Shown here piece by piece: positions 2-21,238 of a stretch of 30,058 nt of DNA. The stretch is taken from the IMG/VR virus record IMGVR_UViG_3300025087_001825, positions 1 through 30,058 of that record; one strand, given 5' to 3'. The translations under genes were made by a program, and so were the position numbers. The DNA comes from a virus. Position 1 is the first letter of the stretch. Each line of letters opens with the position of its first letter. Below the pieces are notes generated by a model. The model searched no databases. It saw only the letters and a program-made list of their open reading frames with translations, and was not told where the DNA came from.

Positions 2-199
2 GACTTAGGGGGAAGCGGAGTATCTCCCGCAATAAACGATATTATTGGTCTTGATTTTGCCATTAACGATTCCGATACCGGCGGTACAAGAGAAAGTCAG
101 GAGGAATGGAGTGGTGATGGGACAAGCTATCTTGACCCATCACAATTTGGAGAATTAAAATTTATTGCCGGGGCACCTCCATCAGGACCGTGTCGGTAA
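2..199 (+). CDS. C-terminal end of a CBM9-like carbohydrate-binding (fibre) protein, partial
   Basis: The reading frame is already open at the window's first bases and stops at TAA 197-199, leaving 65 residues of a longer protein. The text GLDFAINDSDTGGTRES, followed by EEWSGDGTSYLDPSQFGELK, matches the C-terminal part of family 9 carbohydrate-binding / DOMON-like domains: a hydrophobic strand, the IND-D-GG-RES turn, a W-G pair, then DPS-FG. Such domains bind sugars, and in a phage they normally sit on fibres or other surface proteins. It precedes other fibre-like genes, which fits a host-recognition role. After the TAA the same frame stays open for 21 more codons, to TAA 263-265, and encodes a strand-like end (TYSVVIKLDVD). 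The gene may therefore have been shortened by a nonsense change. The family call is fairly good; the role is inferred. Confidence 0.6.
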   Translation, partial: DLGGSGVSPAINDIIGLDFAINDSDTGGTRESQEEWSGDGTSYLDPSQFGELKFIAGAPPSGPCR

Positions 200-284
200 T
201 TCAGTTATTGTGGTTCAGATGGGGGTTTGACCTATAGTGTTGTTATTAAACTTGATGTGGACTAAGAAGTGTTGTACAAATTAA

Positions 285-290
285 TATAAT
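285..290 (+). promoter_or_regulatory. Possible -10 hexamer (TATAAT) upstream of the gene at 320
   Basis: A perfect TATAAT lies in the gap between the partial CBM9-like gene and the gene at 320. No good -35 box is found 16-18 bases upstream and there is no extended -10 TG. In AT-rich DNA such a hexamer occurs by chance, so this is a weak call. Confidence 0.2.
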
Positions 291-319
291 AGAATTGAGG
301 AAAGGAAAATAATTTAAAT

Positions 320-736
320 ATGCCTAGATCTACTATTTTTGATGTTTACCAGAATGCCTATTATAAGGCAGCTACTCAATTTCTATTTCGGGAATTTAAT
401 CCAGTTAGACTAGCGAGTAGTTTTGTATATAACTCGGTGGGTTCTGGTGGTTTGGCAGCTACTAATGGTTTGATAGATGTATCAAGATATAGAAGTAAAG
501 AAATATATTATCAGCCTAGAATATTGAATAGTGGCTCTGTAGCTTTTAGTATAGAGGGTAAGGCTGCTTTTATGAGTACCTGGACACAGTTGGATGTATT
601 TACTAAGACGTCCGAGCAGGCTACCTGGTACACGGGATATATGGTGACTGAGGAAATAGATCATTTGAGGGTAGGAGTAAGGGCAGCAAGCCCGGGAGCT
701 AGCGATATTGTTAATATTTATTTAGGCTTAAAATAG
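320..736 (+). CDS. Hypothetical phage structural protein (138 aa)
   Basis: The ATG at 320 follows a purine-rich stretch (gaggaaagg, about 297-305) with a rather long spacer. The protein has no signal peptide or membrane segment. It is rich in Tyr, Ser, Ala and beta-branched residues, with alternating hydrophobic strands in its second half (VAFSIEGKAAF, IDHLRVGVRAA, DIVNIYLGLK), suggesting an all-beta fold. I do not recognise the family. It lies between a carbohydrate-binding fragment and a C1q-like fibre protein, so a small fibre, baseplate or adhesion subunit is plausible; position is the only support for that. Confidence 0.7.
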   Translation: MPRSTIFDVYQNAYYKAATQFLFREFNPVRLASSFVYNSVGSGGLAATNGLIDVSRYRSKEIYYQPRILNSGSVAFSIEGKAAFMSTWTQLDVFTKTSEQATWYTGYMVTEEIDHLRVGVRAASPGASDIVNIYLGLK

Positions 737-752
737 GGAGAAGATAAATATT

Positions 753-1808
753 ATGAAAAGAAAACATTGGTTGCTAGCTTTTTTGGTAATGCTGTTTCCT
801 TTTCTTATAGCGGCAGATAAGAAGCCCTTAGTATTGAACGCTGGTGTCCCTGGGCAAGTGAGATCAGGTGATTATATTGAGGGCCTCGGCCCCAACGCCA
901 ATCCTTCCAACCTTCTTTCCTCTGGCACTGGTGGAATGGAGTTATGGCCAGATGGGACTGGTAATGCTCCGTTTGGGACTGCGTTGGTGCTTACACCTAC
1001 TGTGGCTCAGATAACGGGTATTAAGGGTTATGGAAGTGTAGGGCCTTATGCGGCGAGAGTAACGGCAACGGGGGCCGGGGATGAAGGGATAAGCATTACC
1101 TTAGCTACCCTTGAAGCTTCTACTGTATATTCTATCTCAGTATGGACAAAGGCTACAGCAGGAGACACGACTAGTGTTATAACGACTGGTTGCGTATCTA
1201 ATATAAACACCGATACTACAGCAACGTCATGGACATTAGTAACTGGCACTTGTACCACGGATGCTACTCCTACCAACATAGTAATTCAGCTAGTAGCTTC
1301 TGCAGATACTGATATAGCGGATTTTGAAGGGTTGTCAGTTACTAAAAGCCCTATCCCAGCAGCCTTTGCCGAGGGGCCAATGATGGGAGAAAGAAGATTA
1401 CAATTTTTCGCTAATACTACTGTGGGAACAACAACAACTTCAGAGGCATGGACGGTTATTGGTATGGATGGAGAAGATTTTGATCCTGCGGGGAAATATA
1501 ATTTGTCAACTGATCGCTACACTCCTGGGGAGGATGGGCATTATCTTATTATAGGTTGTGTGGGTTTTAACCCAGGTGTAGATGGAAAAGTGTATCAGCA
1601 TGGGGTGCTTAAAAACGGTTCTATTACTTATCCAGGAACCGGAGGGCCCCATGCAGCAGGGACATCTGGTATAACCCCATGCAGTAGCGTACTACTATTT
1701 CTTGACGAGAATGATTATGCTCAATGTGCGGGGACGCAAAACACAGGAGGGAACGTTGATACACTAGGAAATAATAATAGTTTTTGTGCTGGATATAAAA
1801 TTGATTAG
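753..1808 (+). CDS. Fibre-like protein with signal peptide, carbohydrate-binding-like middle and C1q-like head
   Basis: 351 residues, ATG at 753 after aggga-type purines. Residues 1-21 (MKRKHWLLAFLVMLFPFLIA) form a textbook Sec signal peptide: basic start, hydrophobic core, small residue at the end. The next segment, PLVLNAGVPGQVRSGD, resembles the N-terminal lead-in of many phage fibres. Residues about 55-195 (GGMELWPDGTG, then YAARVTATGAGDEGISI and VYSISVWTKATAG) look like a CBM4/9-type galactose-binding-like jelly roll. Residues about 210-351 look like a C1q/TNF-like trimeric head, with strands such as GHYLIIGCVGF and an SFCAGYKID end that fits the last C1q strand. The signal peptide is odd for a virion part and may mean the protein is exported or envelope-anchored during infection. 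Domain calls are by eye; the exact role is unknown. Confidence 0.75.
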   Translation: MKRKHWLLAFLVMLFPFLIAADKKPLVLNAGVPGQVRSGDYIEGLGPNANPSNLLSSGTGGMELWPDGTGNAPFGTALVLTPTVAQITGIKGYGSVGPYAARVTATGAGDEGISITLATLEASTVYSISVWTKATAGDTTSVITTGCVSNINTDTTATSWTLVTGTCTTDATPTNIVIQLVASADTDIADFEGLSVTKSPIPAAFAEGPMMGERRLQFFANTTVGTTTTSEAWTVIGMDGEDFDPAGKYNLSTDRYTPGEDGHYLIIGCVGFNPGVDGKVYQHGVLKNGSITYPGTGGPHAAGTSGITPCSSVLLFLDENDYAQCAGTQNTGGNVDTLGNNNSFCAGYKID

Positions 1809-1818
1809 GAGAAAAGAT

Positions 1819-2328
1819 ATGAAAAAACTATTTATAACAACGTTATTGCTAGGCTGCTTTTCTGTAATAGCTTTTGCTGGTACTCCTAATTGTGTTAGGT
1901 GTAAGATTAATACAGTTAAGCTAGAAGTTATTGAAAAATATGCCCTTAATCTTTTAGATACTACTGAGTGTGCACCGGGAATAAATGAACTAGAGATGCT
2001 AAAAGCTGATGAAGTCTATATAAGTATTTCTTTGCCAGAAGAAATAAATAAGGCCTTTACTGCCACTAAAATAATTGTTACTAAAGATTTAGAGGGCAAG
2101 TATCAGCTAACCTATGATTTTGTTCCTCTTTTAACAGATGAAGAGAAAGCCGCTAAAGCCTTTGAAGGGCTTATTCTAGCCGAATTTCCGCAAATAACTA
2201 AGTTTGGAGATTTAACGCCAGAGATGATTGACCAGTACGTGGTGGATCATCCTCTAGATAAGAATATGCTAGGTAAAATTATAAAGGCAGGTTTATTTTA
2301 TATCAGGTCTGGAGGAGGGTTAAAGTGA
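1819..2328 (+). CDS. Small exported protein of unknown function (signal peptide)
   Basis: The start is ATG 1819, behind taggagaaaag; an upstream in-frame start at 1786 would bury the signal peptide and has no clear Shine-Dalgarno. The 169-residue product opens with MKKLFITTLLLGCFSVIAFA, a Sec signal peptide with a likely signal peptidase I site after AFA. An LLGC string could also be read as a poor lipobox. The mature part begins GTPNCVRCKI, with a CxxC pair, and then has amphipathic strands and helices without a family I recognise. It sits directly behind another signal-peptide protein, so the two may act together outside the cytoplasm, for example at the cell surface or in lysis. That link is inference. 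Confidence 0.72.
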   Translation: MKKLFITTLLLGCFSVIAFAGTPNCVRCKINTVKLEVIEKYALNLLDTTECAPGINELEMLKADEVYISISLPEEINKAFTATKIIVTKDLEGKYQLTYDFVPLLTDEEKAAKAFEGLILAEFPQITKFGDLTPEMIDQYVVDHPLDKNMLGKIIKAGLFYIRSGGGLK

Positions 2329-2332
2329 AATA

Positions 2333-2503
2333 ATGTTCCGTAAAAATCAAGAAAAAACTGATGGTTCTTACGCAAAATGCACCAATGATAAGTGTGGTGT
2401 ATACTGGGAGAGTACTAAAATTAGATTGTGTCAGCTTTGTGGAAACCCTGTAAAGATAGTAGTAATAAAGGAAGATGGAAAAACAGAAACAGATGCCAGA
2501 TAA
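2333..2503 (+). CDS. Zinc-ribbon-like microprotein (56 aa)
   Basis: ATG 2333 to TAA 2501-2503. The start lies 4 bases after the preceding stop, and the purine run ggaggaggg near 2311-2319 can serve as Shine-Dalgarno. The chain carries CTNDKC and then CQLC, a C-x4-C plus C-x2-C arrangement that fits a single zinc ribbon, with a Lys-rich strand at the end (VKIVVIKEDGK). Coding is supported by its exact fit between neighbours and the conserved-looking cysteine pattern. It may bind nucleic acid or be a small structural knuckle; nothing in the sequence decides this. Confidence 0.62.
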   Translation: MFRKNQEKTDGSYAKCTNDKCGVYWESTKIRLCQLCGNPVKIVVIKEDGKTETDAR

Positions 2504-2520
2504 AAAAGAAGGAGTGATGA

Positions 2521-2811
2521 GTGGATATATTTGCAGACCCAAAAACAATTATCTTTTTAATTACTTCTTTTATAGCCCTCGGTGGTGTAGGGGCGGTAGT
2601 AAAAATAACCTGGGATAGAATGAATAAGTTGGCTAATGGGGTTGTCTACCAGGATGAATTTAAACAATTTGAAAAAAGATTTGTGGAAATGAAAGATGGT
2701 ATTGTTGATCTAAGGATTCAGCAGGGAGTATATCATCAAGAGATAACGGATTGGCTAAGAAAGATTGATGAGCGGTGTATAAAGCATTTGGTGGGAGGGA
2801 CAGGAAATTGA
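2521..2811 (+). CDS. Membrane-anchored coiled-coil protein, holin- or spanin-like candidate
   Basis: A GTG start at 2521 follows aaggag about 8 bases upstream. The 96-residue protein has one N-terminal membrane segment, residues about 10-28 (IIFLITSFIALGGVGAVVKI), then a charged amphipathic helix (residues about 40-85) likely to form a coiled coil. Small proteins with one membrane helix and a coiled coil are common in phage lysis cassettes (holin, XhlA-like or spanin-like). No lysin is recognised next to it, so the lysis role is only a suggestion. The gene ends in TTGA shared with the next start, implying coupled translation. Confidence 0.65.
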   Translation: MDIFADPKTIIFLITSFIALGGVGAVVKITWDRMNKLANGVVYQDEFKQFEKRFVEMKDGIVDLRIQQGVYHQEITDWLRKIDERCIKHLVGGTGN

Positions 2812-3482
2812 AAATTGATCTAAATCAGATGTTTACAGCCTTTGCCCTGAATTTTCCTGGTAAGGCTAAGCACAGAGAAGTAGATTACCATAGCCCTGAT
2901 GATCCCTGGGATTTTCATAATAGCCATTGGGGAGAAATAATTATTGGAGATAGACTGGTACAGATTCAAAGAATAGGAACTACAGGGCAACATATATTTG
3001 ATGTTTATCATAATGATTTGTTAGGTAATGAAGAGATTATAGCTATCCGAAGCACTTTATTAGATAATGAGAAGGGGTTTTTATGGGAGCCTTCTATCCC
3101 TGTGGTTAAGAGATTGTTTGAGGTAAACAATATAGCAGAGTTAATAGGAGCAAACTTAGAGAGGTGGGTAGATGAAAAAAACATAATATCTTGCCAGCCT
3201 ATATTTAGGCAAAACTTTTCTTGGGGTTATTATATAAGTGATATAGGAACCTATGATTTTGGAGGTAATATAGGATTACGGGCTTATCTAGTTCTTACGT
3301 CCTTATATGGAATACAAGAGAATTATGCCTATGATATTGGGCCTGATCTTAATACTTTTGAGCCCAAATATGGTCTATTGGCTTATAAGCATTGGCATAA
3401 TGACGATGCCTGGGCCATAGAGACCTATGCCTGGATAGAAGATTTTATTTATCTAGAATATTCATGCCCAGTTTTACTATAG
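2808..3482 (+). CDS. Hypothetical protein, Trp/Tyr-rich (224 aa)
   Basis: I place the start at TTG 2808, which overlaps the previous stop as TTGA and lies behind gggagggacagg. An earlier in-frame start at 2775 sits well inside the previous gene. The protein is rich in Trp, Tyr, His and Asp (SPDDPWDFHNSHWGE, KHWHNDDAWAIETYAWIED), has no clear membrane segment, and looks globular. I do not recognise the family. The aromatic and acidic content would suit a carbohydrate- or metal-binding enzyme, such as a cell-wall hydrolase, but I see no diagnostic catalytic motif. Confidence 0.68.
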   Translation: MKIDLNQMFTAFALNFPGKAKHREVDYHSPDDPWDFHNSHWGEIIIGDRLVQIQRIGTTGQHIFDVYHNDLLGNEEIIAIRSTLLDNEKGFLWEPSIPVVKRLFEVNNIAELIGANLERWVDEKNIISCQPIFRQNFSWGYYISDIGTYDFGGNIGLRAYLVLTSLYGIQENYAYDIGPDLNTFEPKYGLLAYKHWHNDDAWAIETYAWIEDFIYLEYSCPVLL

Positions 3483-3493
3483 GGAGTTGAGCT

Positions 3494-3877
3494 ATGTCTC
3501 TAAGAAGCCTTTGTGCGAATTGTAGCGTAGAGATGGGCAATAACAATAAGAAAAAGTATTGCTCTGCCTGTGAGTTTGTATCATTCCCCTGTCCTGACTG
3601 TGGCAAAGAAGTAATCAGAAAAAGAACTATAGTAGATATAAAGATAAAAATGTTCCCCGGATATGTTCCAGCTTGCAGCCAGCGATGTTCATCTGGTAGG
3701 ATAGCCCGGGACAAAAAGACTCAATATGATATGGAGCCACTTGATCCTGACCCTAAGATTTTAGCTTCTTGGCAGGAAGAGATCGAAGAAATAAGACTGT
3801 ATCGTCCTCCTTTTAGGCCAATAGGCTGGGAATGGGATATTATTTTGCAGGATTATATGAGGTCAGTGACGGTGTAA
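3494..3877 (+). CDS. Zinc-binding protein with several CxxC pairs (127 aa)
   Basis: ATG 3494 follows agggag with good spacing. The N-terminal half has CANC, CSAC and CPDC pairs at about residues 7-10, 23-26 and 33-36, then a further Cys pair near residues 61-65. This suggests two zinc knuckles or ribbons. The C-terminal half is acidic then aromatic (PPFRPIGWEWD). The architecture fits small phage regulators or scaffolded nucleic-acid binders, but no specific family is recognised. It is one of four small Cys-rich proteins in this window. Confidence 0.7.
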   Translation: MSLRSLCANCSVEMGNNNKKKYCSACEFVSFPCPDCGKEVIRKRTIVDIKIKMFPGYVPACSQRCSSGRIARDKKTQYDMEPLDPDPKILASWQEEIEEIRLYRPPFRPIGWEWDIILQDYMRSVTV

Positions 3878-3903
3878 TATTTTTTTATAGGGAGGTGATT
3901 TTT

Positions 3904-4086
3904 ATGAAAAGTTGGATTACTAAGGTAACGGGATGCCTAAGCATATTGTATGGAATAGCCCTAATTATTTACAGTCAAGATATTACCCAGGGGATGCCTT
4001 ATATAATTGGTGGAGGAGGGATGTTGGGAATTGGGAGAAAGATTGATAGGCTTGGCGGACAGGGCGGATCACTACTATGCCCCTAA
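3904..4086 (+). CDS. Small membrane protein (60 aa)
   Basis: The start is ATG 3904, set by a near-perfect Shine-Dalgarno (agggaggtgat, 3890-3900); the frame opens further upstream but has no ribosome site there. Residues about 8-24 (TGCLSILYGIALIIYS) form one membrane helix, and a second weaker hydrophobic Gly-rich segment (MPYIIGGGGMLGIG) follows before a basic turn and a Gly-rich end. It may be a holin-like or membrane-associated protein and lies downstream of the other membrane protein at 2521. The function is inferred only from size and topology. Confidence 0.68.
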   Translation: MKSWITKVTGCLSILYGIALIIYSQDITQGMPYIIGGGGMLGIGRKIDRLGGQGGSLLCP

Positions 4087-4185
4087 GGAAATGAGATTGA
4101 ATATCCCTCCTTGGTGGGCAGTGAAGATGAAATGAGTTTGTAAAATAGGGGATCATGTATTTTTGGAATCAGATAGAGTAAGAAA

Positions 4186-7100
4186 ATGAAAAGAAAAGAT
4201 ATTGATAAAATAAGTTCTCGGGGGGAAGAGAAAGTCCATAGGGTTTTGGCTCAAGTTATTTCTCCTTGGCAGCAGGAGACTGGAATAGAAGCCCCGAAAG
4301 CTTATGCTTTTAAGGATTTTCTTTCTGTGTATGGGGAAGGAGCTTTGGCTAATGTTTGGGTTTTTCGGGCAGTAAGAGCAATAAGTGAAGCACAGGCTCA
4401 GCTTCCTCTTCTTATTCAAGGACGGAATCGGAAGGGAGAATGGGAAAATATATATTCAGGTTCCTTACCTAGGTTATTTGAAAATATTAATCCGGTAATG
4501 ACTTATTATGACTTTACTGAAGCTGAAAGTATATATATGGAATTGACTGGTAATTGCTTTTTGGCCTTGGAAAACCCATCTCCATCAACTAAAATGCCCA
4601 GAGAAATATGGCCTATAAGGCCAGATTTGGTGAGGATACATCCTGATAAGGAGACAGGGGAGGTACTGGGTTATACAGTTCATTTGGGTGATGGACAGAA
4701 GCCAATTTTGTATTCTAGGGATGAAATGATTCATAGAAAGTACTATAATCCTACTAATTGGTTTTGGGGAGCTAGTCCGTTAGCTGTATTTAAAATGGGG
4801 TTGACTTTTGAATATTATACTAAAGTCTATGAAAGTAATTTTTTTAAACATGGAGTACGAGAGACAGGTATATTAGTTGCTGGTGGGAGGTTGGATGATA
4901 AGCAATTTGAAAGATTAAGAAAACAAACTGAGGCTCGGTATAGTGGAGTAGAGATGATGCATCGGCCAATGGTTTTGGAGGGGGGTTTGGATTGGAAAAG
5001 AATAAGTGTTCCTCCAAAAGATATGGAGTATAAGGAATTAAAAAAATGGAATAAAGAGGAAGTTGAGGCAATATATAATATACCACCATTAAAGATGATG
5101 GATATGGAAGCAGCTAGTAAGTTAGCCAATGCAGAAATACAGGAGAGGTTGTTTTGGTCAGACACTATAATTCCTAGACTCAAGAAGCGAGAAGGGTTCT
5201 TTGACGAGTGGTTATTGCCTTTCTTTTTTAAGAAGAGTGAGTTATCAAACTATAGATTTAGACATGACTTGAGTGAAGTAAGATCATTACAAATGAGTGA
5301 GATAGAAAAAAGCGAAATAGCTGTAAGGTTAATTGGGGGGAACAATCCAATTTTTTCGGTAGATGAAGTTAGAGAGAGACTTTATAGCTTGCCTCCAGCC
5401 TCATGGGGAGGTAAAGAGCCTCTGGTTTCAGCTAATTTAGTTCCAGCTGGCTTTATGTCCTCTGGAGGAGGGGGGGTTCAGGTAGAGGGAATTCTTAATA
5501 TATTAGCAGAGAAAATAGCTAAAAAGATAAAAGATAATGGCAATGCTAAATTAATAGAAGGAGAAGTATTAGACATCAAGACTGATGATAATACTTCTTT
5601 GGTAGAGGATAAGTATTCAGAAGAGTATATATGGAGTATTCAACCAGAATTTGATATAGGAGAGGAACAACAGCAATACTGGAGGGAATGGGCAGTAAGG
5701 AGATTAAAGGAAGAAGACCGCTTTGTAAGGTCTTTGAATGTAGAGTTTAGGAGAGAGTTAAATGAGACCTTAAATAATTTAAATAAATTAAATGAAGGCC
5801 AACTTATACCTGTTAAATCATTATTGTTTGATGAGAGTCATGCAATAAATAATATGAGGGATATATATTTAAGTAATTTTGGTTTTATAATGAGGAATAC
5901 TTCTAGTGAAGAGATGGCTAAATGGAATTTGACTAATTTAGTAGATGAGCAGAGCCCTACTGTGATAGAATATGGAAGGAATCAGGCAAGCTGGTTTGCT
6001 GGTACAGGTAGGGAAAATCTTAGGCCGGGTCAATATTCTGGGGTAACAGGGACTCAGTTAGAAAAACTAGAGAATACATTTAATGAAGGATATAGATTGG
6101 GAGAGAGCGTAGAGGAATTAACTAAGAGAGCTCAAAATGTTTTTGCTGGAACAATAAGAGAAAAGGGATATGCTGCTAGACGGATAGCTAGAACTGAGAC
6201 TATAAGAATAGCTAACTTTAGTAGATTAACTCAGTATCAAAGGAATAGGCATATTGTTAGAGCAAAGCAGTGGTTGGCTCAGCTTGATAGTAGAGTAGAG
6301 GAAATTTGTGCTAGATTGCATGGTGAGGTAGTAGATTTGGAGGCCAGCTTTTCTGGGGGATATTATCAGCCCCCGGATCCCCACGTAGGCTGTCGGTGTT
6401 CTATACTTCCAGTAATTAGAGAAAAGCTAGGAGAGATTGAAGCAAAACCTATTTATGAACCTCCTATGAGTTCTATTGGCCGGTTTGTAAAGTGTATTTT
6501 ACCAGAAAAATTTTTTACTGTTGGCTTTGAGTTTAAAATTCCTTCTGAATGTATGGATTATACAAGAGATGAAGGAGGGGAATGGAGTTTAAGGGGAGAG
6601 CTTGTTTCTGAAGAGGTTACAGAAAGATTTAAAAAGATGAGAATTCCTCCTGGATGGAAGCAAGTAGTAGCCTCTACTGATCCTAAAGCAAAGGTGCAAG
6701 TTGTTGGTATGGATATTGCGGGTAGATGGCAATATAGATATTCAGCTCTGCATATAGGAGAGGCAGCTAAAAATAAGTTTAATAGGCTAAAAATTTTTGA
6801 AAGAAAGATAGATAAGATTAGAAATGGGATTGAGAAAGGGATAGTTAATAATGATTCAAGAGCTTTTCTTCTGAAGCTTGAAGATAAAACAGGCATAAGA
6901 GCGGGGTCTTTGGTTGATGTGAAGGCAAAGAAAAAAGCCTATGGGTTAACAACCTTACAAAATGAACATGTGGTTGTTAAAGGTAATAAAATTATTTTAG
7001 ATTTTGTAGCAAAGAAAGGTATACCCGCTCATTATGAATTAGAAGATAATGTTTTGGCTACTTGGTTAAAAGCTAGGCAAAGTCAAGTGCAAATAGGAGA

Positions 7101-7386
7101 GAGGCTTTTTCCTGATATTCCAGCAAATGAACTCAATAAATATATTAAGGAAATATCTGGTAAGAGTTTTTCTATTAAGGATTTTAGAACTTTTCATGGC
7201 TCTCGTATTGCTAGGGAAGAGTTGAAACAATATGGGGGAAAAGTTTTGTCTACCAAAGAAAAAAAGGATATAATAAAAACCACTTTGGAAAAAGTAAGTT
7301 TTTTTCTAAAAAACACTCCGTCTATGGCAAAGAAGGCATATATAGATCCAATGGTATGGGACATAATAGGGGGAGGCGGTTTGTAA
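4186..7386 (+). CDS. Portal / MuF minor head / DNA topoisomerase IB triple fusion
   Basis: 1066 residues in a single open frame. Residues about 25-400 are an HK97-family portal, with typical segments such as YYDFTEAESIYMELTGNCFL, GASPLAVFKMGL and EAIYNIPPLKMM. A linker (about 400-480) leads to a MuF/SPP1 gp7-like minor head domain (about 490-745) ending in ARTETIRIAN, QWLAQLDSRVEEICARLHG and the HVGCRC signature (C736, C738). Residues about 780-1060 are a type IB topoisomerase: IPPGW (820-824), QYRY, KFNRLK, then DKTGIRAGS (R905), YGLTTL (919-924), the K943 loop, KDFRTFHGS (R1001), NTP (N1043) and KKAYIDP with nucleophile Y1052. N1043 to Y1052 is 9 residues, as for His265 to Tyr274 of vaccinia enzyme; Asn at that position is usual in bacterial enzymes. 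The product would place nicking/relaxing activity at the portal vertex. Proteolytic release by the prohead protease is possible. Confidence 0.93.
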   Translation: MKRKDIDKISSRGEEKVHRVLAQVISPWQQETGIEAPKAYAFKDFLSVYGEGALANVWVFRAVRAISEAQAQLPLLIQGRNRKGEWENIYSGSLPRLFENINPVMTYYDFTEAESIYMELTGNCFLALENPSPSTKMPREIWPIRPDLVRIHPDKETGEVLGYTVHLGDGQKPILYSRDEMIHRKYYNPTNWFWGASPLAVFKMGLTFEYYTKVYESNFFKHGVRETGILVAGGRLDDKQFERLRKQTEARYSGVEMMHRPMVLEGGLDWKRISVPPKDMEYKELKKWNKEEVEAIYNIPPLKMMDMEAASKLANAEIQERLFWSDTIIPRLKKREGFFDEWLLPFFFKKSELSNYRFRHDLSEVRSLQMSEIEKSEIAVRLIGGNNPIFSVDEVRERLYSLPPASWGGKEPLVSANLVPAGFMSSGGGGVQVEGILNILAEKIAKKIKDNGNAKLIEGEVLDIKTDDNTSLVEDKYSEEYIWSIQPEFDIGEEQQQYWREWAVRRLKEEDRFVRSLNVEFRRELNETLNNLNKLNEGQLIPVKSLLFDESHAINNMRDIYLSNFGFIMRNTSSEEMAKWNLTNLVDEQSPTVIEYGRNQASWFAGTGRENLRPGQYSGVTGTQLEKLENTFNEGYRLGESVEELTKRAQNVFAGTIREKGYAARRIARTETIRIANFSRLTQYQRNRHIVRAKQWLAQLDSRVEEICARLHGEVVDLEASFSGGYYQPPDPHVGCRCSILPVIREKLGEIEAKPIYEPPMSSIGRFVKCILPEKFFTVGFEFKIPSECMDYTRDEGGEWSLRGELVSEEVTERFKKMRIPPGWKQVVASTDPKAKVQVVGMDIAGRWQYRYSALHIGEAAKNKFNRLKIFERKIDKIRNGIEKGIVNNDSRAFLLKLEDKTGIRAGSLVDVKAKKKAYGLTTLQNEHVVVKGNKIILDFVAKKGIPAHYELEDNVLATWLKARQSQVQIGERLFPDIPANELNKYIKEISGKSFSIKDFRTFHGSRIAREELKQYGGKVLSTKEKKDIIKTTLEKVSFFLKNTPSMAKKAYIDPMVWDIIGGGGL

Positions 7387-7575
7387 ATGGTAGAACAAGA
7401 AAAAGAAGAAAAGGATTTTAGAGATTGGATTGAATCAATTAATTTTGTGGATGAGGAGGGCAAGGTTCTTCCTGCAAAATTGACGGAGGATGATTCTTAT
7501 GATCCAGAGTATGACAGGGGAGAGCCTTCTGAGGAAGAAATAATAGAGGAAGAAGAAGAGGAGGAGGAGGAATAA
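7387..7575 (+). CDS. Very acidic small protein with C-terminal Glu run (62 aa)
   Basis: The ATG directly follows the TAA of the fusion gene (TAAATG), behind gggggaggcgg. The protein is strongly acidic, with more than half of its last 20 residues Glu, and has no fold I recognise. Its last part is encoded by a 28-base purine-only tract (7545-7572). Adjacent to a topoisomerase/MuF gene, such an acidic chain could be a DNA mimic, a chaperone or an assembly factor for the basic C-terminal enzyme. All of these are inference. Low complexity alone could also produce this pattern, but the tight junction supports real translation. Confidence 0.65.
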   Translation: MVEQEKEEKDFRDWIESINFVDEEGKVLPAKLTEDDSYDPEYDRGEPSEEEIIEEEEEEEEE

Positions 7576-7578
7576 TTT

Positions 7579-7806
7579 ATGAGAGAAGAGCTAAGAGAAA
7601 TACTTTATGGGGGAATGTATAGGGCTGATCCTGGTTCAGATGGATATAAAGAGCAGGATCGGAGATTAGACAAAGTAATGGATTTGATAGAACAAGAATA
7701 TAATGAAGAAGAAGGAGAGGGAGGAGAGAAAATGGGAAAGAAAAAGAAGAAGCCAGAAAGTTTTATAGATAAGATGATTAAAAAGGATATTGTAGAGGGG
7801 AAATAG
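7579..7806 (+). CDS. Small charged protein, acidic then Lys-rich (75 aa)
   Basis: ATG 7579 lies three bases after the previous stop and behind gaggaggaggaa. The N-terminal 45 residues form an acidic amphipathic helix (LDKVMDLIEQEYNEEEG). A KMGKKKKKPESF segment and a short helix (IDKMIKKDIVEGK) follow. No family is recognised. The position, between portal-MuF and protease, is one where siphoviruses often encode head-assembly helpers. An internal methionine near residue 52 could give a short Lys-rich product. Confidence 0.62.
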   Translation: MREELREILYGGMYRADPGSDGYKEQDRRLDKVMDLIEQEYNEEEGEGGEKMGKKKKKPESFIDKMIKKDIVEGK

Positions 7807-7808
7807 AT

Positions 7809-9407
7809 TTGGCAATTAAGATAGGGGTAAAAGATGGAAGGGAAGTTATGGCTTCTTGGCCTACTTATCAGGAATTGAAGGCTATAGATGAAAAGAAAAG
7901 AACTATAGAAATGGTTTTCTCAGATGAGACCATAGACCGGGATAGAGAAGTAATAAAAGTAGCGGGGTGGGACATAAAGAATTATAAAAAGAACCCGGTA
8001 GTTCTTTGGGCACACAATCATGCAGGTCTTCCCATAGGGCGATCAGAAAAGACCTTAATAGATGGAGAACAGTTGAAAGGAAATATTTTGTTCACTACTG
8101 GGGAGACGGGAAATGGGTTGGGAGAGGCTGTTTTTAATCTCTTTAATAATAAATTTCTTAATTGTGGTTCAGTAGGATTTATTGGGTTAGAAGAGAATTG
8201 GATAGAAGAGCAGGATAGGGATAAAAAGAAGCCTGTTAGAAGAGAGTTTTTAAGGCAAGAATTACTGGAATATTCTATTTGCCCCGTCCCGGCTAATCCT
8301 TCAGCTAGTGTTATTAGGGATATTAGTGAGTTTGATTCTACTGAGATAAGAAAAGAGATAGGGTGGATGAAGGATAAAGGAATCATGAATGAAGAAGCAG
8401 AGAGGTTTTTGTTAGAAGTTTATGATTTCTTGGAAGAAAGGAAAACATTTTATTATCCGGTTAGACAATGCAAGCATGAGTCCTGTGAAGAAGCAAAAGA
8501 GAAGGGAGGGTGTGAGTATGGGAAAGAACAAGCAGAAGAAAAAAGCCAGGGACAAGAGAGTAGAGAACAAGAGGGGGAGCAGAAAGAAAAAGAAATAGAT
8601 ATAACTAATCAGGAGGGATTAGATCAATTATTAGAAAGGGTTTTAGGAAAACAGGAAAAAGAAGAGAAACAATTTGAAGTACAGACCCTTATCTTTCCTA
8701 AGACCAAGTGGGATAATGTAGCTACTTGTAAGACTTGGGCTAAAGAACATGATTTTCGTACAGATAAGGTGGATGAGTCTGACTCATCCTGGCGGTTTAG
8801 ACAGGCTAATCCAGATGATTTTACTCGGTTAAGAACAATTTGCATAAATCCTGGTAGGACAACTCCTATGGATGATTGTAAAGTAAAGGCAGTAGGGGGG
8901 CCTAAGAAAGCCATTGATATATATGATGATGAACAGAATTTAATTGATTTTATGTTAGATGTAGATGATGAAAAAGGAGAAGGGATAATTAGAATTGGAG
9001 ATAGTTCTTGGGTCTTTGCTTCCCATGAAGGAGTATTGAAAGAGACAAAAGATCAACACGAGATGATTAATCATATGATGGAAGCAATAGGTTATATGGA
9101 TAAAGCTCGAAGCTGTATGATGGATGCTATGATGGCTGGGGCTGCTTATGGCGAAGAGTTTGTCCAGGAATTTACAGAAAAAGTGGGGGCTGTTTTAAAT
9201 GCTAAGAACAAGGCTCGGATTAAAGAGGCTATAAAAAACTTGGAAGAGGTACTTAAGGCTGCTGGGGAGGAAGAAGAAGAAGAGGGATTAGCAGAAGAGA
9301 TTAAAGAGTTAGAAGGAATGATAATAGATGGTAATAATGAGGGAGATGTAGAGGATTGGGAAGAGGTACTTGCTCTCTTATTAGAGGAAGAGGATGTCAA
9401 TTTATAA
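7809..9407 (+). CDS. HK97-type prohead maturation protease with long C-terminal extension
   Basis: The start is TTG 7809 behind gagggg; no better start is seen. Residues about 20-175 match the S78 prohead serine protease: RTIEMVFSDETIDRDREVI, VVLWAHNHAGLPIGR with candidate catalytic H69, and NCGSVGF with candidate catalytic S121, then ICPVPANPSASV. The protein is 532 residues, well over twice the bare protease. Residues about 285-370 carry a second domain (WDNVATCKTWAKEHDFRTDK, DSSWRFRQANPDDF) that I recall from other phage head proteins. The acidic, helical C-terminus (LAEEIKELEGM, LALLLEEEDV) could be a built-in scaffold. It would cleave the capsid protein's N-terminal delta region and possibly other head proteins, including the portal fusion. 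Its neighbours on both sides are head genes. Confidence 0.88.
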   Translation: MAIKIGVKDGREVMASWPTYQELKAIDEKKRTIEMVFSDETIDRDREVIKVAGWDIKNYKKNPVVLWAHNHAGLPIGRSEKTLIDGEQLKGNILFTTGETGNGLGEAVFNLFNNKFLNCGSVGFIGLEENWIEEQDRDKKKPVRREFLRQELLEYSICPVPANPSASVIRDISEFDSTEIRKEIGWMKDKGIMNEEAERFLLEVYDFLEERKTFYYPVRQCKHESCEEAKEKGGCEYGKEQAEEKSQGQESREQEGEQKEKEIDITNQEGLDQLLERVLGKQEKEEKQFEVQTLIFPKTKWDNVATCKTWAKEHDFRTDKVDESDSSWRFRQANPDDFTRLRTICINPGRTTPMDDCKVKAVGGPKKAIDIYDDEQNLIDFMLDVDDEKGEGIIRIGDSSWVFASHEGVLKETKDQHEMINHMMEAIGYMDKARSCMMDAMMAGAAYGEEFVQEFTEKVGAVLNAKNKARIKEAIKNLEEVLKAAGEEEEEEGLAEEIKELEGMIIDGNNEGDVEDWEEVLALLLEEEDVNL

Positions 9408-9726: not shown

Positions 9727-11145
9727 ATGGGAGACGATTTAAAAGATAAACAGGATAAGGCTCGAACAAAGGTTGTAGAGCTTGTCCAGACCACAGTAAA
9801 AGATACTATAAGCTCCTTTTTGGGAGAGCTTAAAAATGAACTTAATAAAGAATTTGATTCAAGATTAACCCAGTTAAAAGAGGAGATAGTTGATCAGAGA
9901 AAGATTAGGTTTAATCCCCTTGATGCTCAAGCTCCCTATGTTACTAGGGGACAAATAGGAGACAGAGGGGGATATTCTTTTTTGAGAATAATTCAAGCCC
10001 AATTAAGTCACGATTGGAAGGTAGCTAAGGTAGAGCGGGGGGTTCACGAGGAGTTGGCTAGGTATGGATATGGTCAGGAGGCAGAGATTGGTTATTGGAT
10101 TACCCCTTTGAATTGTAATGGATTGCCCGATTCAATTTCTTATTCTATTAAGCAAATGATGGCAGAGCCCTTAAAAGGGGTGGAAATGAAGGATGTGAAG
10201 TCCTATCTAGCTAAAGTTTTGGGGTTTTCTAATGATGAGCTAGGTGGGTATTTAGTAGAGCCTATTCAGTCTCCAGAGATAATAGATATGCTTCGGCCAA
10301 TGGTCGTTGTTCAGAGGGCAGGAGCTAGAGAGGTTCCTCTACCTATATCTGGCCAGCTAGATATTCCTAGGCAGACTTCTGGAGTAGATGCTCAGTGGGT
10401 AGGAGAGAATGAGAATATTCGGACTCGGATAACTACTAATGCTAAGTTTGGTTCTCTTTTGCTTAGAGCTAAGAAGTTAGCTACTTTTCAACAGTTGAGC
10501 TCAGAGCTAATAAGTAGCTCTACTCCAGCTGCAGAGGCAGTTATTCGGCAGGATATGGCCTTGAAGATAGCTGAAAAGGAGGATCTAACCTGGCTTTCTG
10601 GGTCTGGTTCTCAGACTACCCCGATGGGGATTATTGTCCACCCAAGTATAACAACTTTTACTCCTACAACTACTGGAGGAAATGGAGATACTTTTGAAAG
10701 TCAGGATGTACAGCTTCTGGTGGGAACGGTGGAGGAGCAAAATGCTGTAATGCAAGGATGGATAATGCGGCCAAAGATGTTGGCTATATTGCTTTCCAGA
10801 AGGGCTAATCAGACCGCTGCTAATACTGGGGAGTTTATGTTGGATATAGTCAAGGACCCGACTAATAAGGCCGGATATCTTTTAGGAGGTTACCCTGTAT
10901 ATACTACTACTCAAGTGAGTAATACCAGGGTAAAGGCTGGGGGGACAACCTTGACCTATATTCTGGCTGGGATGTTTACAGAATGTATAATAGGGCGGAA
11001 GGCTACTTTGGAGATTAAGGCTAGCGCAGAGGCAGGAACTGCTTTTGAGACAGATCAGGTTTGGTTAAGAGGAATAACTAGATCTGATTTTGGTTTGCGT
11101 CATCAAGCAGCTATTGTCTTTGCGGATGATCTTGTTCAGAGTTAA
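9727..11145 (+). CDS. Major capsid protein, HK97 fold
   Basis: ATG 9727, behind gatagaggagatagg. The 472-residue protein starts with a charged coiled coil (residues about 5-60, KVVELVQTTVKDTISSFLGE and following) that fits the delta domain removed by the maturation protease. The body has hallmark HK97 segments: GGYLVEPIQSPEIIDMLRP, VVQRAGAREVPLP, a W-V-GE-E stretch (AQWVGENENI), FGSLLLRAKKLATFQQLS, DLTWLSGSGSQTTPMGI and GYLLGGYPVYTT. It builds the icosahedral shell. The order protease then capsid then decoration protein is typical. A short zinc-finger gene and a 93-base gap separate it from the protease. Confidence 0.95.
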   Translation: MGDDLKDKQDKARTKVVELVQTTVKDTISSFLGELKNELNKEFDSRLTQLKEEIVDQRKIRFNPLDAQAPYVTRGQIGDRGGYSFLRIIQAQLSHDWKVAKVERGVHEELARYGYGQEAEIGYWITPLNCNGLPDSISYSIKQMMAEPLKGVEMKDVKSYLAKVLGFSNDELGGYLVEPIQSPEIIDMLRPMVVVQRAGAREVPLPISGQLDIPRQTSGVDAQWVGENENIRTRITTNAKFGSLLLRAKKLATFQQLSSELISSSTPAAEAVIRQDMALKIAEKEDLTWLSGSGSQTTPMGIIVHPSITTFTPTTTGGNGDTFESQDVQLLVGTVEEQNAVMQGWIMRPKMLAILLSRRANQTAANTGEFMLDIVKDPTNKAGYLLGGYPVYTTTQVSNTRVKAGGTTLTYILAGMFTECIIGRKATLEIKASAEAGTAFETDQVWLRGITRSDFGLRHQAAIVFADDLVQS

Positions 11146-12187: not shown

Positions 12188-13270
12188 ATGAGGATTGCTT
12201 TACCTACTATTTGGTTTCATAGAGGCCAAACAGAAGTAACTAAAACATTTAAAAAAGTATTTGAAGAATTGGGGCATGAGGTGTTTATTCATGCAAGAAT
12301 GGGGGGGATAGGGAATCAGCCTAAATTGGAATTTAGGAGGAGGGGTTGGCATGATGAAAATATCTGGTATTACAATTATTACGATTTGAAGAAAGCTGAG
12401 TTTTTAGAGAAGATAAAACAACAAAAGATAGATTTAGTTTTTTTCAATGAGGAGTATGATTGGGAATTAGTAAAAATGGTCAAGAAAATAGGGATTAAGG
12501 TGGCCTCCTATCTTGATTATCTTCATAAAGATTGGTTAAAGAAACCAAGTCCTTTAGAAATTTATGATTTAATTCTTTGCTCTACTAGAAGAGCTTTTAA
12601 TATGGTGGAGAATCTTTGCCTTGCTAAATGGATAGGATGGGGAATGAAGGAAGAGAATAAGGTTATTTCAGTAAAAAAACCTTATGTTTTTTTTGAAAAT
12701 GTTGGTTGGGGAGGCATAAATGATAGAAAAGGAATAAATACTCTACTGTCTGTATACAAACTTTTTTTAAAAAAACACCCCGAAGCTTTTGGAAGTCTTT
12801 TAATTCATTGTCAAATGTATTTTAATCCAGACGAGGGTAATGAAAATAAAGAAGATTTTGATGGAGTTGATGTTATTTGTGGAAGTATGAATTTACCAGG
12901 ACTTTATCATATGGGAGAAGTTTATTGTTATCCAGCTAAATTAGATGGATTAGGATTGAGTTTGTTGGAAGCAATAAATAATGGTTTAGCTATAATATGT
13001 CCGGATTACCCTCCTTGGAATGAGTTTGTGGAGGATCAATATAATGGGATATTAGTTCCAATTGTAGAGGAGAGGGAAAGGGAAGATGGGATAGCTTTTA
13101 GAGAAGTGTTTGTTGATACTCAGAAGTTTTTAGAAGCTATGGAAGAATTATATTTAGACAAAGAAAAAAGAAGTCTCTTTAGATCAAATTCTTTGTATTA
13201 TTCTACTCGAGTATTGAATTGGAGACTGTTTAAAGATAAAATAGTAGAAGCTTTAGTATCGATAAGGTGA
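12188..13270 (+). CDS. Glycosyltransferase, GT-B fold, GT4-like
   Basis: ATG 12188 starts 7 bases after the previous stop. The 360-residue protein has an N-terminal Rossmann half with a short sugar-acceptor loop (MRIALPTIWFHRGQTEVTKT, IDLVFFNEEYDWELV). Its C-terminal half has the GT4 nucleotide-sugar signature VYCYPAKLDGLGLSLLEA, with E261 at the expected EX7E position, then DYPPWNEFVEDQYNGILVP. It would transfer a sugar from a nucleotide donor in the cytoplasm; donor and acceptor are unknown. It is followed by a second transferase overlapping by a few bases and a UDP-sugar epimerase, so the three probably form one pathway. Phage virion glycosylation is a possible purpose. Confidence 0.85.
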   Translation: MRIALPTIWFHRGQTEVTKTFKKVFEELGHEVFIHARMGGIGNQPKLEFRRRGWHDENIWYYNYYDLKKAEFLEKIKQQKIDLVFFNEEYDWELVKMVKKIGIKVASYLDYLHKDWLKKPSPLEIYDLILCSTRRAFNMVENLCLAKWIGWGMKEENKVISVKKPYVFFENVGWGGINDRKGINTLLSVYKLFLKKHPEAFGSLLIHCQMYFNPDEGNENKEDFDGVDVICGSMNLPGLYHMGEVYCYPAKLDGLGLSLLEAINNGLAIICPDYPPWNEFVEDQYNGILVPIVEEREREDGIAFREVFVDTQKFLEAMEELYLDKEKRSLFRSNSLYYSTRVLNWRLFKDKIVEALVSIR

Positions 13271-13272
13271 AT

Positions 13273-14157
13273 ATGAGCATAGTTATAGTAGGAAAATTAG
13301 GAAATGATTGGGGAATAGAAGGATTAATAGCAAGGCATGTTAGTGAGTTTGTGAATTTAAGAATAATAGATATAAAGGAATTTAATCTAGGTAAGTTTTC
13401 TTCAGATGATAATTTTGTATTTATTCAGGGGAGAGGGATAGATAGAGACTTACTAAGATTATATAGGGGAAAAAAAGTATTATGGAATGCTGAATTTTTG
13501 CCCTATAAGGGTTTTGAAGATAATCAGGAAGCATTGGCTAGACTTTATGCTATAGAGCCTTTAGAAGATTTTGATTTAATATTGAATGGATGTCCTCTAT
13601 CTACTAAATTTTTAAAAGAGATTAGAAATCTTAATATAGAATGGTTTCCAATGATGGGGGCAGATTCTTTATTCCACAGAAGAGATTGTGATATTCCTAA
13701 AGATACAGACATAGGGTTCTATGGAGCAGTAAGTCAGAGAAGAATAAAGATTTGGCATGAATTAATAAGAGTAGTGAGTAAATATTCAATTGGTTCATTG
13801 AAACTAGCTTGGAAACAAGTATATGGAAAGGATCTAATTAGATTTATTAATTCCTGTAAGGTAGTTCTAAACATCCACTACTCTGATTTATTAAATACTG
13901 AGAGCAGAATTTATGAGATTCTGGGTTGTGGGGTTTTTTGCTTGTCTGAACCAGTAAGTTATCCTGATTTATTTTTGGATGGAAAGCATTTAAAAATTGA
14001 GGGAGAAGATGGCTTTTTAAAAGCCGCTATAGATTTTTCTTCTTTTAGAAGAACCGAAGCAAAACAAATTGCTCGACAAGGATATGAGTATGTTCATGAC
14101 AAGTTTGGTATTCAAAAGGTGATGAGTAATTTGATAAAGAGAATAGAATGTCTGTGA
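13273..14157 (+). CDS. Glycosyltransferase, CgeB-like / GT-B
   Basis: The start is uncertain. GTG 13267 would overlap the prior stop as GTGA, but ATG 13273 has aaggtga just upstream, so I prefer it; the product is then 294 residues. The C-terminal half carries the Glyco_trans_1_2 / CgeB-type signature: IRFINSCKVVLNIHYSD, then ESRIYEILGCGVFCLSEP from about residue 210, a Pro and Asp-rich turn, and a C-terminal helix. The N-terminal half is a short Rossmann-like domain (IVIVGKLGNDWGIEGLIARH, VFIQGRGIDRDLL). It probably adds the next sugar after the gene at 12188. Its substrate is unknown. Confidence 0.8.
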   Translation: MSIVIVGKLGNDWGIEGLIARHVSEFVNLRIIDIKEFNLGKFSSDDNFVFIQGRGIDRDLLRLYRGKKVLWNAEFLPYKGFEDNQEALARLYAIEPLEDFDLILNGCPLSTKFLKEIRNLNIEWFPMMGADSLFHRRDCDIPKDTDIGFYGAVSQRRIKIWHELIRVVSKYSIGSLKLAWKQVYGKDLIRFINSCKVVLNIHYSDLLNTESRIYEILGCGVFCLSEPVSYPDLFLDGKHLKIEGEDGFLKAAIDFSSFRRTEAKQIARQGYEYVHDKFGIQKVMSNLIKRIECL

Positions 14158-14179
14158 TTTCTATTTGCGAAGGGTAAGA

Positions 14180-15250
14180 ATGAAAAAGATATTAATAGTT
14201 TTTGGTACTAGACCGGAGAGTCTAAAGGTTTATCCCTTAGTTTATTATGCCAAAGAATTTCCTAATTTAAAGGTAGAAAGTTATTGTACTTTGCAACACG
14301 AAGCTAAATATTTGGATTTTGAAGCAGACTATGGAATAAGTAAATTTAAAGAATCTAATCTTCCCCCCAATAATATTGGAGCAATATATGATGATTTGGA
14401 TTGGTTTCTTAGTCAAAAACAAAAAGAATATGATTATATCCTGGTTCAGGGAGATACTTTTTCTGCTTTAGCTGGGGCTTTGTGGGGATACTATAATAAG
14501 GTTCCTGTAATCCATGTAGAGGCAGGGCTGAGGACTTTTGAGGAAGACCCTTTTCCAGAAGAAAAGAATAGAGACTTGATAGAAAGGCTTAGTAGTGTTT
14601 GGTTTTGTCCTACTGAACAAAATTGTCAGAGTACCCCTATTTTTAAATATAGGAGAAAAAATACTTATGTTGTAGGAAATACTATTATAGATAGATTGAG
14701 GATGGAAATGAATTCTTTGAAAGGTTTGAGTGAATTAGAAAGAAAAAAATCAGAGGGGTTTGAAAGAGGTGTTTATTTATGTTCCCTTCATAGAAGAGAG
14801 AGTTGGGATAGGTTTGAAGGAATGTTATCATTAATAAAAGAGGTATCTGATAAAATTAAAAAAGGGTTTTTATTTCTTACTAATCCTAATAGAAAACTGA
14901 ATAAATTTTTTAAAAATACTGGGTATATGAAGATGATAGAGCCAGTAAATTATCAGGAGATGGTAAAATTATTAATTAACTGCGAAGCAGTAGTAACTGA
15001 TAGTGGGGGGTTAATTGAAGAAGCTGCTTATTTAAGAAAACCTTGCTATATACTGAGGGATTATACTGAGAGGCAAGAGTCAGTATTAATGGGTTTAGCT
15101 GTGTTGTTAGGAAGAGAAAAGGGAATTTTAAAATTATCTTTCTTATCTGAAGACAATCATTTCTGGTTTAAAAAGGAGGTTGAATGTCCTTATGGGAAAG
15201 GAGATTCAGCAAAAAAGATATTAACTATTTTAAGTAGGGAGGATTTATGA
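14180..15250 (+). CDS. wecB: UDP-N-acetylglucosamine 2-epimerase (non-hydrolysing)
   Basis: The ATG at 14180 follows agggtaag; an in-frame TTG at 14165 lacks such a site. The 356-residue protein is a near-usual length WecB/MnaA-type enzyme that converts UDP-GlcNAc to UDP-ManNAc in the cytoplasm. Visible motifs: FGTRPESLKVYPL near the start, ILVQGDTFSALAGALWG (D92), HVEAGLRT (E114), FPEEKNR (E127/E128), LHRRESW (the substrate His), and TDSGGLIEEAAYLRKPC followed by LRDYTERQES. These are the conserved residues of the family. It is a dedicated sugar-donor supplier for the adjacent transferases. The symbol is by homology; some phage relatives act on other UDP-sugars. Confidence 0.9.
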   Translation: MKKILIVFGTRPESLKVYPLVYYAKEFPNLKVESYCTLQHEAKYLDFEADYGISKFKESNLPPNNIGAIYDDLDWFLSQKQKEYDYILVQGDTFSALAGALWGYYNKVPVIHVEAGLRTFEEDPFPEEKNRDLIERLSSVWFCPTEQNCQSTPIFKYRRKNTYVVGNTIIDRLRMEMNSLKGLSELERKKSEGFERGVYLCSLHRRESWDRFEGMLSLIKEVSDKIKKGFLFLTNPNRKLNKFFKNTGYMKMIEPVNYQEMVKLLINCEAVVTDSGGLIEEAAYLRKPCYILRDYTERQESVLMGLAVLLGREKGILKLSFLSEDNHFWFKKEVECPYGKGDSAKKILTILSREDL

Positions 15251-19080: not shown

Positions 19081-19758
19081 TTGTATTTAAGGGAATTAGA
19101 GCATGTTTCAATTTTGGATTATGAAGGGAGAATATTAAGAGAGGCAGTTAAATATCTTTCTCCCAAAAATTTATTTGAAGCTGGGACTAATAATGGATAT
19201 GCTACAGGTTGGATTTTAGCTGGTATAGAGGAAAGTAATGAATCAAAAGGGGTTTTTTATTCGTGTGACCCCAGGAGATTTCCTGATATAAGGAACTTTC
19301 CAGAAAGATATAGAACAGACAGTTATCGTCCTAGAAATTTCTTGTTTGTTAAAGAATCCTCTTTGAATTTTTTTGCTAGGAATTATGATAAGAAATTTGA
19401 TTTTGCTTTTCTTGATGGAGATCATAGGAAACAAATAGTATTTGAAGAATTATATAGATTGGGAGTTTGTAGAGTAGGAAATAATTGTATAGTTTTTCTT
19501 CATGATGTTAGACCAAGTTTAATTGTAGAAGAAAAACAACCTTTTTGGGGATTGATGGATTATATAGAAAAGAACTGTGATAGTAAATATAATCTATTTA
19601 ATCTTATATTTCCTGGTTCCCTGGCGACAAATTTGGATATAGGAAGAATAAAGAAGATAATGGAGAATAGCAATTTAGGTTTTGATATTGGAATAGTCCC
19701 ATTAGGAGGAGCCTTGGAATGGCTGGGGTATCAAAGGGAGTCTCTACAGGAAATTTAA
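19081..19758 (+). CDS. Second class I SAM-dependent methyltransferase
   Basis: TTG start at 19081, behind agaggagg. The 225-residue protein carries FEAGTNNGYATGWI (residues 32-45, a motif I variant with an Asn pair) and FDFAFLDGDHRKQIVFEEL (about 106-124), followed by VFLHDVRP. These are hallmarks of Methyltransf_24-type small-molecule methyltransferases. The HD after the central strands is typical. Its 3' end overlaps the next gene by 40 bases. Together with the gene at 17676 it gives two methyltransferases interleaved with connector genes, a possible sugar O-methylation pair. Confidence 0.75.
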   Translation: MYLRELEHVSILDYEGRILREAVKYLSPKNLFEAGTNNGYATGWILAGIEESNESKGVFYSCDPRRFPDIRNFPERYRTDSYRPRNFLFVKESSLNFFARNYDKKFDFAFLDGDHRKQIVFEELYRLGVCRVGNNCIVFLHDVRPSLIVEEKQPFWGLMDYIEKNCDSKYNLFNLIFPGSLATNLDIGRIKKIMENSNLGFDIGIVPLGGALEWLGYQRESLQEI

Positions 19759-21035: not shown

Positions 21036-21238
21036 TAAATATGGTAAAAGAATATAAAAAATTATTTAGGGAGCAAACTTCAAAAGGAATTTTACAAATA
21101 GTAAGAGATAGTTGTGAAGCTCTTATTGAAAAAGAAGTTCATGATAACCCAGTACTGGATAAGTATATTAAGCAGAAGCTAACAGATCATTTGGGCGCTT
21201 CTTTGCCTATTTTGAGAGAAAGATGGAAACTAAATTAA
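21026..21238 (+). CDS. Small hypothetical helical protein (70 aa)
   Basis: The frame opens at ATG 21026, with another ATG at 21041 behind ggag; either start is possible, and the second gives 65 residues. The protein is helical throughout (KEYKKLFREQTSKGILQIVR and EVHDNPVLDKYIKQKLTDHL). It overlaps both neighbours (10 bases before, 16 after). No family is recognised. Confidence 0.58.
   Translation: MELINMVKEYKKLFREQTSKGILQIVRDSCEALIEKEVHDNPVLDKYIKQKLTDHLGASLPILRERWKLN

Follow-up and report, generated by a model that had tools for sequence, protein, structure and literature searches.

A portal protein with fused MuF and type IB topoisomerase domains in an uncultured tailed phage, and the recurrence of the topoisomerase with portal or MuF proteins in viral contigs

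A stretch of viral DNA of 30,058 nucleotides (IMG/VR virus record IMGVR_UViG_3300025087_001825, positions 1 to 30,058; hereafter the window) carries, at positions 4186-7386 of the plus strand, a single ATG-started open frame of 1066 amino acids in which an HK97-type portal, a MuF domain and a bacterial-type type IB topoisomerase (TopIB) follow one another. This architecture, the intact conserved set of active-site residues, the fold predicted for TopIB and the repeated linkage of the enzyme with portal or MuF domains are direct results of the analysis presented here. TopIB is a widespread MuF/portal-linked module of uncultured phages, and the fusion is no one-off. Our best reading is that TopIB represents a new and recurrent enzymatic module, undescribed in the literature searched, of a known class of virion cargo, i.e., that anchored by MuF or portal proteins (Iyer 2017; Jamet 2017), and that the portal fusion is the most striking form of this module. 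The features of the gene are as follows.

4186-7386, plus strand: portal-MuF-TopIB fusion gene, one open reading frame (ORF) with four Pfam domains; same protein in further contigs
4360-5382, plus strand: HK97-type portal domain, residues 59-399 (PF04860, Phage_portal, 1.5e-61; PDB 6tba, 3e-27; portal families phrog_2662 and phrog_12)
6064-6405, plus strand: MuF (gp7/Mu F-like) domain, residues 627-740 (PF04233, Phage_Mu_F, 2.6e-13; several PHROG head-morphogenesis families)
6463-6495, plus strand: conserved MuF/TopIB junction peptide PMSSIGRFVKC, residues 760-770 (PMxxIGRxxxC in relatives)
6598-6714, plus strand: bacterial TopIB N-terminal domain, residues 805-843 (PF21338, Top1B_N_bact, 2.2e-7)
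6757-7335, plus strand: TopIB catalytic core, residues 858-1050, with R905, K943, R1001 and N1043 (PF01028, Topoisom_I, 5.5e-27; AlphaFold2 pLDDT 93.4; Foldseek match to variola TopIB, TM 0.75)
7339-7341, plus strand: codon of the predicted catalytic tyrosine Y1052 (tyrosine kept in all 91 viral TopIBs covering the column)

The unbroken portal-MuF-TopIB frame claimed in a preliminary description of this DNA is real, with four Pfam domains in order along the 1066 residues, all of them matched above the curated cut-offs. The landmarks named in that description (RTE, HVGCRC, IPPGW, QYRY and KFNRLK) were all found in the translation, and the Pfam search that it proposed for the TopIB part returned both PF01028 and PF21338. 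By sequence search of the PDB, the portal part resembles the GTA/HK97-family portal 6tba (3e-27), and the C-terminal part resembles the TopIB of Deinococcus radiodurans (2f4q, 3e-26) and that of variola virus (2h7f, 1.5e-10). Pfam thus places a MuF/portal domain and a C-terminal enzyme domain in one chain, the arrangement by which MuF-anchored virion effectors are recognised. An AlphaFold2 model of the full chain, built on an 11-row alignment, had a pLDDT of 47 and was not used.

The same 1066-residue protein is encoded in two further IMG/VR contigs, one of 49.2 kb and one of 44.8 kb, with a partial copy in a third contig; 4 mismatches to the window over 7977 bp mark the 44.8-kb contig as a separate strain or assembly. 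Because the protein recurs in other contigs, including this variant, the fusion frame is not an assembly join, and an assembly chimera was rejected. An internal start yielding free TopIB was likewise rejected: the junction ATG at residue 761 is conserved, and no Shine-Dalgarno-like stretch precedes it in the window or in most relatives. The wider possibility that two to three separate genes were merged by assembly or sequencing error, or that TopIB is separately made from an internal start, draws on relatives that keep TopIB as a gene of its own (L009, L011, L023 and L028), but it has to contend with further assemblies, a variant among them, that hold the same ORF, with portal or MuF fusions at about 40 loci in all, and with the lack of a Shine-Dalgarno-like stretch at residue 761. 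We consider this artefact largely refuted and its remaining probability minimal.

The residues proposed in the preliminary description as the catalytic set, i.e., R905, K943, R1001, N1043 and Y1052, all fall on the aligned catalytic columns of TopIB. Across viral TopIBs the catalytic R, K and R are identical in 93 of 93 sequences, Y is found in every one of the 91 that cover the column, and N in 89. An AlphaFold2 model of residues 771-1066, based on a 48-sequence alignment, reached a mean pLDDT of 93.4, and a Foldseek comparison of this model with the PDB placed variola TopIB-DNA complexes at the top (3igc, E 4e-16, TM 0.75), followed by Deinococcus TopIB and human TopIB, whereas a site-specific recombinase (XerH) was matched only at E ~0.01. 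A tyrosine recombinase as the identity of the C-terminal part was ruled out by Pfam, PDB and Foldseek. Furthermore, the TopIB part is under purifying selection (dN/dS ~0.06-0.29, from near-identical pairs). Since the catalytic columns are kept, the predicted fold is that of TopIB and selection is purifying, the evidence from sequence and model argues for a complete topoisomerase that is an active enzyme. The same columns bear on the suggestion that TopIB serves as a part of the head that binds DNA or holds DNA ends, its catalysis being dispensable. The title of Stiege 2003, as cited in PMC6316719, describes the MuF relative gp7 of phage SPP1 as a DNA-binding protein; however, none of more than 90 viral TopIBs departs from the catalytic R, K, R and Y at the columns that it covers, and we regard such a role as very unlikely.

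Viral contigs were scanned with four queries, namely the whole protein, its TopIB domain and two TopIB alignments, one of ten sequences and one of divergent sequences. These scans gave 92 distinct viral TopIB loci, window included, and as they rely on conserved peptides the proportions among the loci are no unbiased census. According to home-made hidden Markov models (HMMs), TopIB shares one chain with a portal at 16 of the 92 loci and with MuF at 24, and a portal or MuF gene lies elsewhere in the locus at a further 29, so that fusion or head-gene company is seen at 69 of the 92. MuF-TopIB chains were confirmed by Pfam (PF04233 or PF06152) at 15 loci, and chains of a PF06381 portal with TopIB and no MuF match at 13 (L046, L048, L049, L069, L071, L074, L075, L089, L091, L103, L117, L121 and L122). 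The MuF labels of L088 and L099 come from the home-made HMM only, Pfam at 1e-3 not confirming them; those of L060, L063, L070, L080, L094, L097 and L128 are likewise weak and stem from the home-made HMM, and the portal labels of L115 and L120 come from the home-made HMM only. Two Pfam portal families are involved, PF04860 in the window and PF06381 in the 13 portal fusions confirmed by Pfam, and the exact layout of the window (PF04860 portal, MuF and TopIB) is found otherwise only in its own near-copies. The search for like fusions elsewhere, suggested in the preliminary description, thus revealed portal or MuF fusions with TopIB in many uncultured phages.

Searches of other collections gave a different picture. 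Four TopIB queries against 50,697 phage records returned no TopIB with a fused portal or MuF; the annotated matches there were topoisomerases, from large phages and one Bacteroides phage. A contig scan of cellular genomes for prophage copies returned only stand-alone TopIB of Dehalococcoidia; TopIB is present in 61 of 301 genomes of the phylum of Dehalococcoidia, mostly in frames of <500 amino acids, and no portal or MuF domain was found at the cellular loci tested (15 loci and 4 long-frame loci from that one phylum, plasmid copies, and Dehalococcoidia). A fusion of portal with TopIB, or of MuF with a topoisomerase, was not found in the literature searched, which comprised open-licence papers only and in which absence is no proof. 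The statement that no phage portal with a fused topoisomerase had been described therefore holds for these records and papers, and no cultured representative was found for the phages with portal/MuF-linked TopIB.

To approach the origin of the fusions, 113 TopIB domains were placed in a quick maximum-likelihood tree, some branches of which are long. A starred set of 24 phage proteins, which stands apart from the cellular groups, comprises the window protein, 15 proteins fused to MuF, 4 separate and 4 other ones. On this tree the portal fusions require 13 changes, at least 5 of which are forced by starred branches, and several independent portal-TopIB fusions seem likely. Intermediate states are represented: portal, MuF-like protein and TopIB are encoded by three adjacent genes in L023 and L028, and L008, L010 and L013 have a separate portal with a MuF-TopIB fusion after it. 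The junction motif PMxxIGRxxxC is shared by the window and most fused relatives of its clade, and in L011, where the MuF-like protein is separate and TopIB is the next gene, it lies at the C-terminal end of the MuF-like protein. Most simply, adjacent MuF and TopIB genes would have become one by loss of the gene boundary.

Several further observations concern the TopIB loci. Just before TopIB, a short motif of the type F.ES.HPRD..GKF..GGG is present in many divergent TopIBs and many fusions with a PF06381 portal (L046, L069, L074, L080, L087, L089, L092, L094, L098, L103, L122 and L126). Further genes of these phages carry it as well, for example three neighbouring ORFs of L094 and two more genes of L046; it is possibly a processing or head-targeting tag. 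At the CxC motif of MuF, L109 (9168-12452) has Pfam intein/HINT and endonuclease-like matches and L039 (ORF 1491-4217) a LAGLIDADG match below threshold, and L060 (ORF 2-3274) has an intein-like C-terminal sequence ahead of CLCD; inteins at this motif are probable in all three. In L130 (ORF 3790-6921) an insertion of ~55 residues splits the TopIB domain. The family phrog_23460, of unknown function and 565 positions, holds TopIB in its C-terminal part, is matched nearly end to end by an ORF of L052 (8038-9801), and can now be annotated as TopIB-containing. G8DGZ0, a viral protein of 957 amino acids, has a TopIB fold in BFVD.

As to function, we give about an even chance to the reading, taken whole, that the protein is a portal with MuF and a bacterial-type TopIB as C-terminal cargo inside the head, which acts on phage DNA at entry or in the first minutes of infection. 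The portal part would build the DNA-entry vertex, and MuF and TopIB, going by portal and MuF biology, would project into the head interior beside the packaged DNA, such that each particle would carry TopIB. At infection the enzyme, tethered still or freed by proteolysis, would act on the incoming phage DNA, where it would use Tyr1052 to make transient single-strand breaks that permit controlled rotation without ATP, and so relax the torsion from genome entry and from first transcription or replication. The portal of SPP1 retains the MuF protein gp7 within the procapsid (PMC6316719), and by analogy the window TopIB would lie at the vertex, in the head interior; for toxins that are fused to gp7-like proteins, transport into the cell has been proposed (PMC6316719; PMC5576092). 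We infer virion presence and copy number, as well as enzymatic activity, release and the infection step. From portal stoichiometry, up to 12 TopIBs could be present per virion, provided that all chains keep their C-terminal part. Comparative anatomy supports a TopIB that sits at the portal in the virion or is delivered to the host, and the phages with a fused TopIB probably carry a topoisomerase inside the particle.

The domains that accompany TopIB help to weigh this against its rivals. An ADP-ribosyltransferase (ART) is found in the TopIB chains of L012 and L032, a 2H phosphoesterase with a Mu-I-type protease in that of L116, NUDIX in that of L110, and a weak PI3/PI4-kinase-like match in those of L045 and L118. 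A HExxH zincin-like motif, a possible self-processing peptidase, stands before TopIB, after MuF or the MuF position, in six chains (L008, L012, L024, L031, L037 and L038), and after TopIB in L005, L040, L045 and L118. Packaged polyvalent proteins are known to include ART, 2H and zincin peptidases, and portal/MuF fusions of such domains (Iyer 2017, PMC5512222). Because ART, 2H, NUDIX and HExxH accompany TopIB, a delivered early enzyme is favoured over a pure packaging swivel. In the latter, a portal-tethered TopIB would form part of the translocation machine and relieve torsion and writhe in place during packaging or ejection. Direct portal-TopIB fusion without MuF in the 13 Pfam-confirmed loci, apparently repeated, speaks for such a role, as do topoisomerase mutants of T4 that impair packaging, according to the citation of Zachary and Black 1986 in PMC10893049; however, ART, 2H and NUDIX domains, which share chains with TopIB, play no role in packaging, and we consider the swivel doubtful. 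Its strongest form, a portal ring with up to twelve active topoisomerases that serves as swivel of the DNA channel, the fusions being repeated because packaging or ejection torsion limits these phages, strikes us as slightly more doubtful again.

Companion ART domains, an effector class known from T4 Alt, also bear on whether the TopIB delivered with the genome is directed at host DNA, which it would relax, nick or trap in complexes, favouring phage transcription or harming rivals in the manner of MuF toxins. MuF C-termini are a known site of toxins (PMC5576092; PMC3482391), but TopIB reseals its own breaks and no toxin use of it was found in the literature searched. Nor was an immunity gene recognised, two small downstream ORFs (7387-7575 and 7579-7806) matching no Pfam family, and the catalytic set is fully kept, yet a poison needs no resealing; a host-directed effector is in our view unlikely.

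The fusion gene lies in a head module, with two head genes downstream.

7809-9407, plus strand: prohead serine protease (S78) gene, directly downstream (PF04586, 7.1e-7; phrog_80, head maturation protease)
9727-11145, plus strand: HK97-type major capsid protein gene (PF05065, 1.8e-38)

Against cargo that acts on phage DNA at entry stand several points. A portal normally stays in the capsid, so that delivery needs proteolysis; the S78 protease next door is a candidate for freeing TopIB, and the window protein itself lacks the HExxH motif. That phage DNA at entry is the substrate we infer. No head gene was found with the HMMs used at 23 of the 92 TopIB loci, and large phages have free TopIB, which is therefore not tied to the virion in all phages (PMC7824862).

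Between the capsid and tape measure genes, an unusual place, the window has a sugar-modification cluster (12188-15250, 19081-19758 and 21223-22332) with glycosyltransferases, a UDP-GlcNAc 2-epimerase and a methyltransferase. The 49-kb contig (G001; L056-L058) carries genes for a RecE-like exonuclease and a RecT-like annealing protein. No terminase match was found among its ORFs scanned, and the terminase gene may be divergent or located beyond the contig ends. The closest portals to window 4186-6495 in named phages include those of Geobacillus phage GBK2 and a Parageobacillus phage, at ~28-31% identity, which hints weakly at a Bacillota host.

With these results, the set of enzymes attached to the portal/MuF gateway of phages gains a topoisomerase that recurs over many loci. 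If active TopIB is indeed present in particles, the part played by DNA topology in packaging, ejection and the first minutes of infection would become testable by a single mutation, Y1052F.

Among known systems, MuF polymorphic toxins (Jamet 2017, PMC5576092; Polymorphic toxin systems 2012, PMC3482391) resemble the window protein in that a MuF domain from the packaging module precedes an enzymatic C-terminus of variable kind, the protein being retained in the head beside the portal; neither text mentions TopIB cargo, however, and the MuF of the window is itself fused to the portal. Polyvalent proteins (Iyer 2017, PMC5512222) include PBECR, 2H and InPase fused to MuF/portal, and zincin peptidases and ART in similar chains, whereas topoisomerase is named there only in a reference title. 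The portal family phrog_2662 (717-position profile) is matched by the window portal at 34-429 and by the MuF-ART protein of L042 at 515-708; portal-MuF chains thus already exist in this family, though without TopIB. The free TopIBs of large phages (phrog_23460; PMC7824862) have the same fold and catalytic set, but are annotated as free enzymes, with no portal/MuF fusion in the records matched. Bacterial TopIB (Deinococcus radiodurans 2f4q) has the same two-domain structure, and plasmid and cellular relatives are ~29-33% identical; those tested are without a portal/MuF domain and form separate groups in the tree. The poxvirus TopIB (variola/vaccinia H6) is a free enzyme of a eukaryotic virus with no portal or MuF, but it offers the closest solved fold and is likewise a viral TopIB linked to particle formation. 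TopIB is packaged in poxvirus cores, and an active TopIB in the particles of the phages described here would be the phage counterpart to that enzyme.
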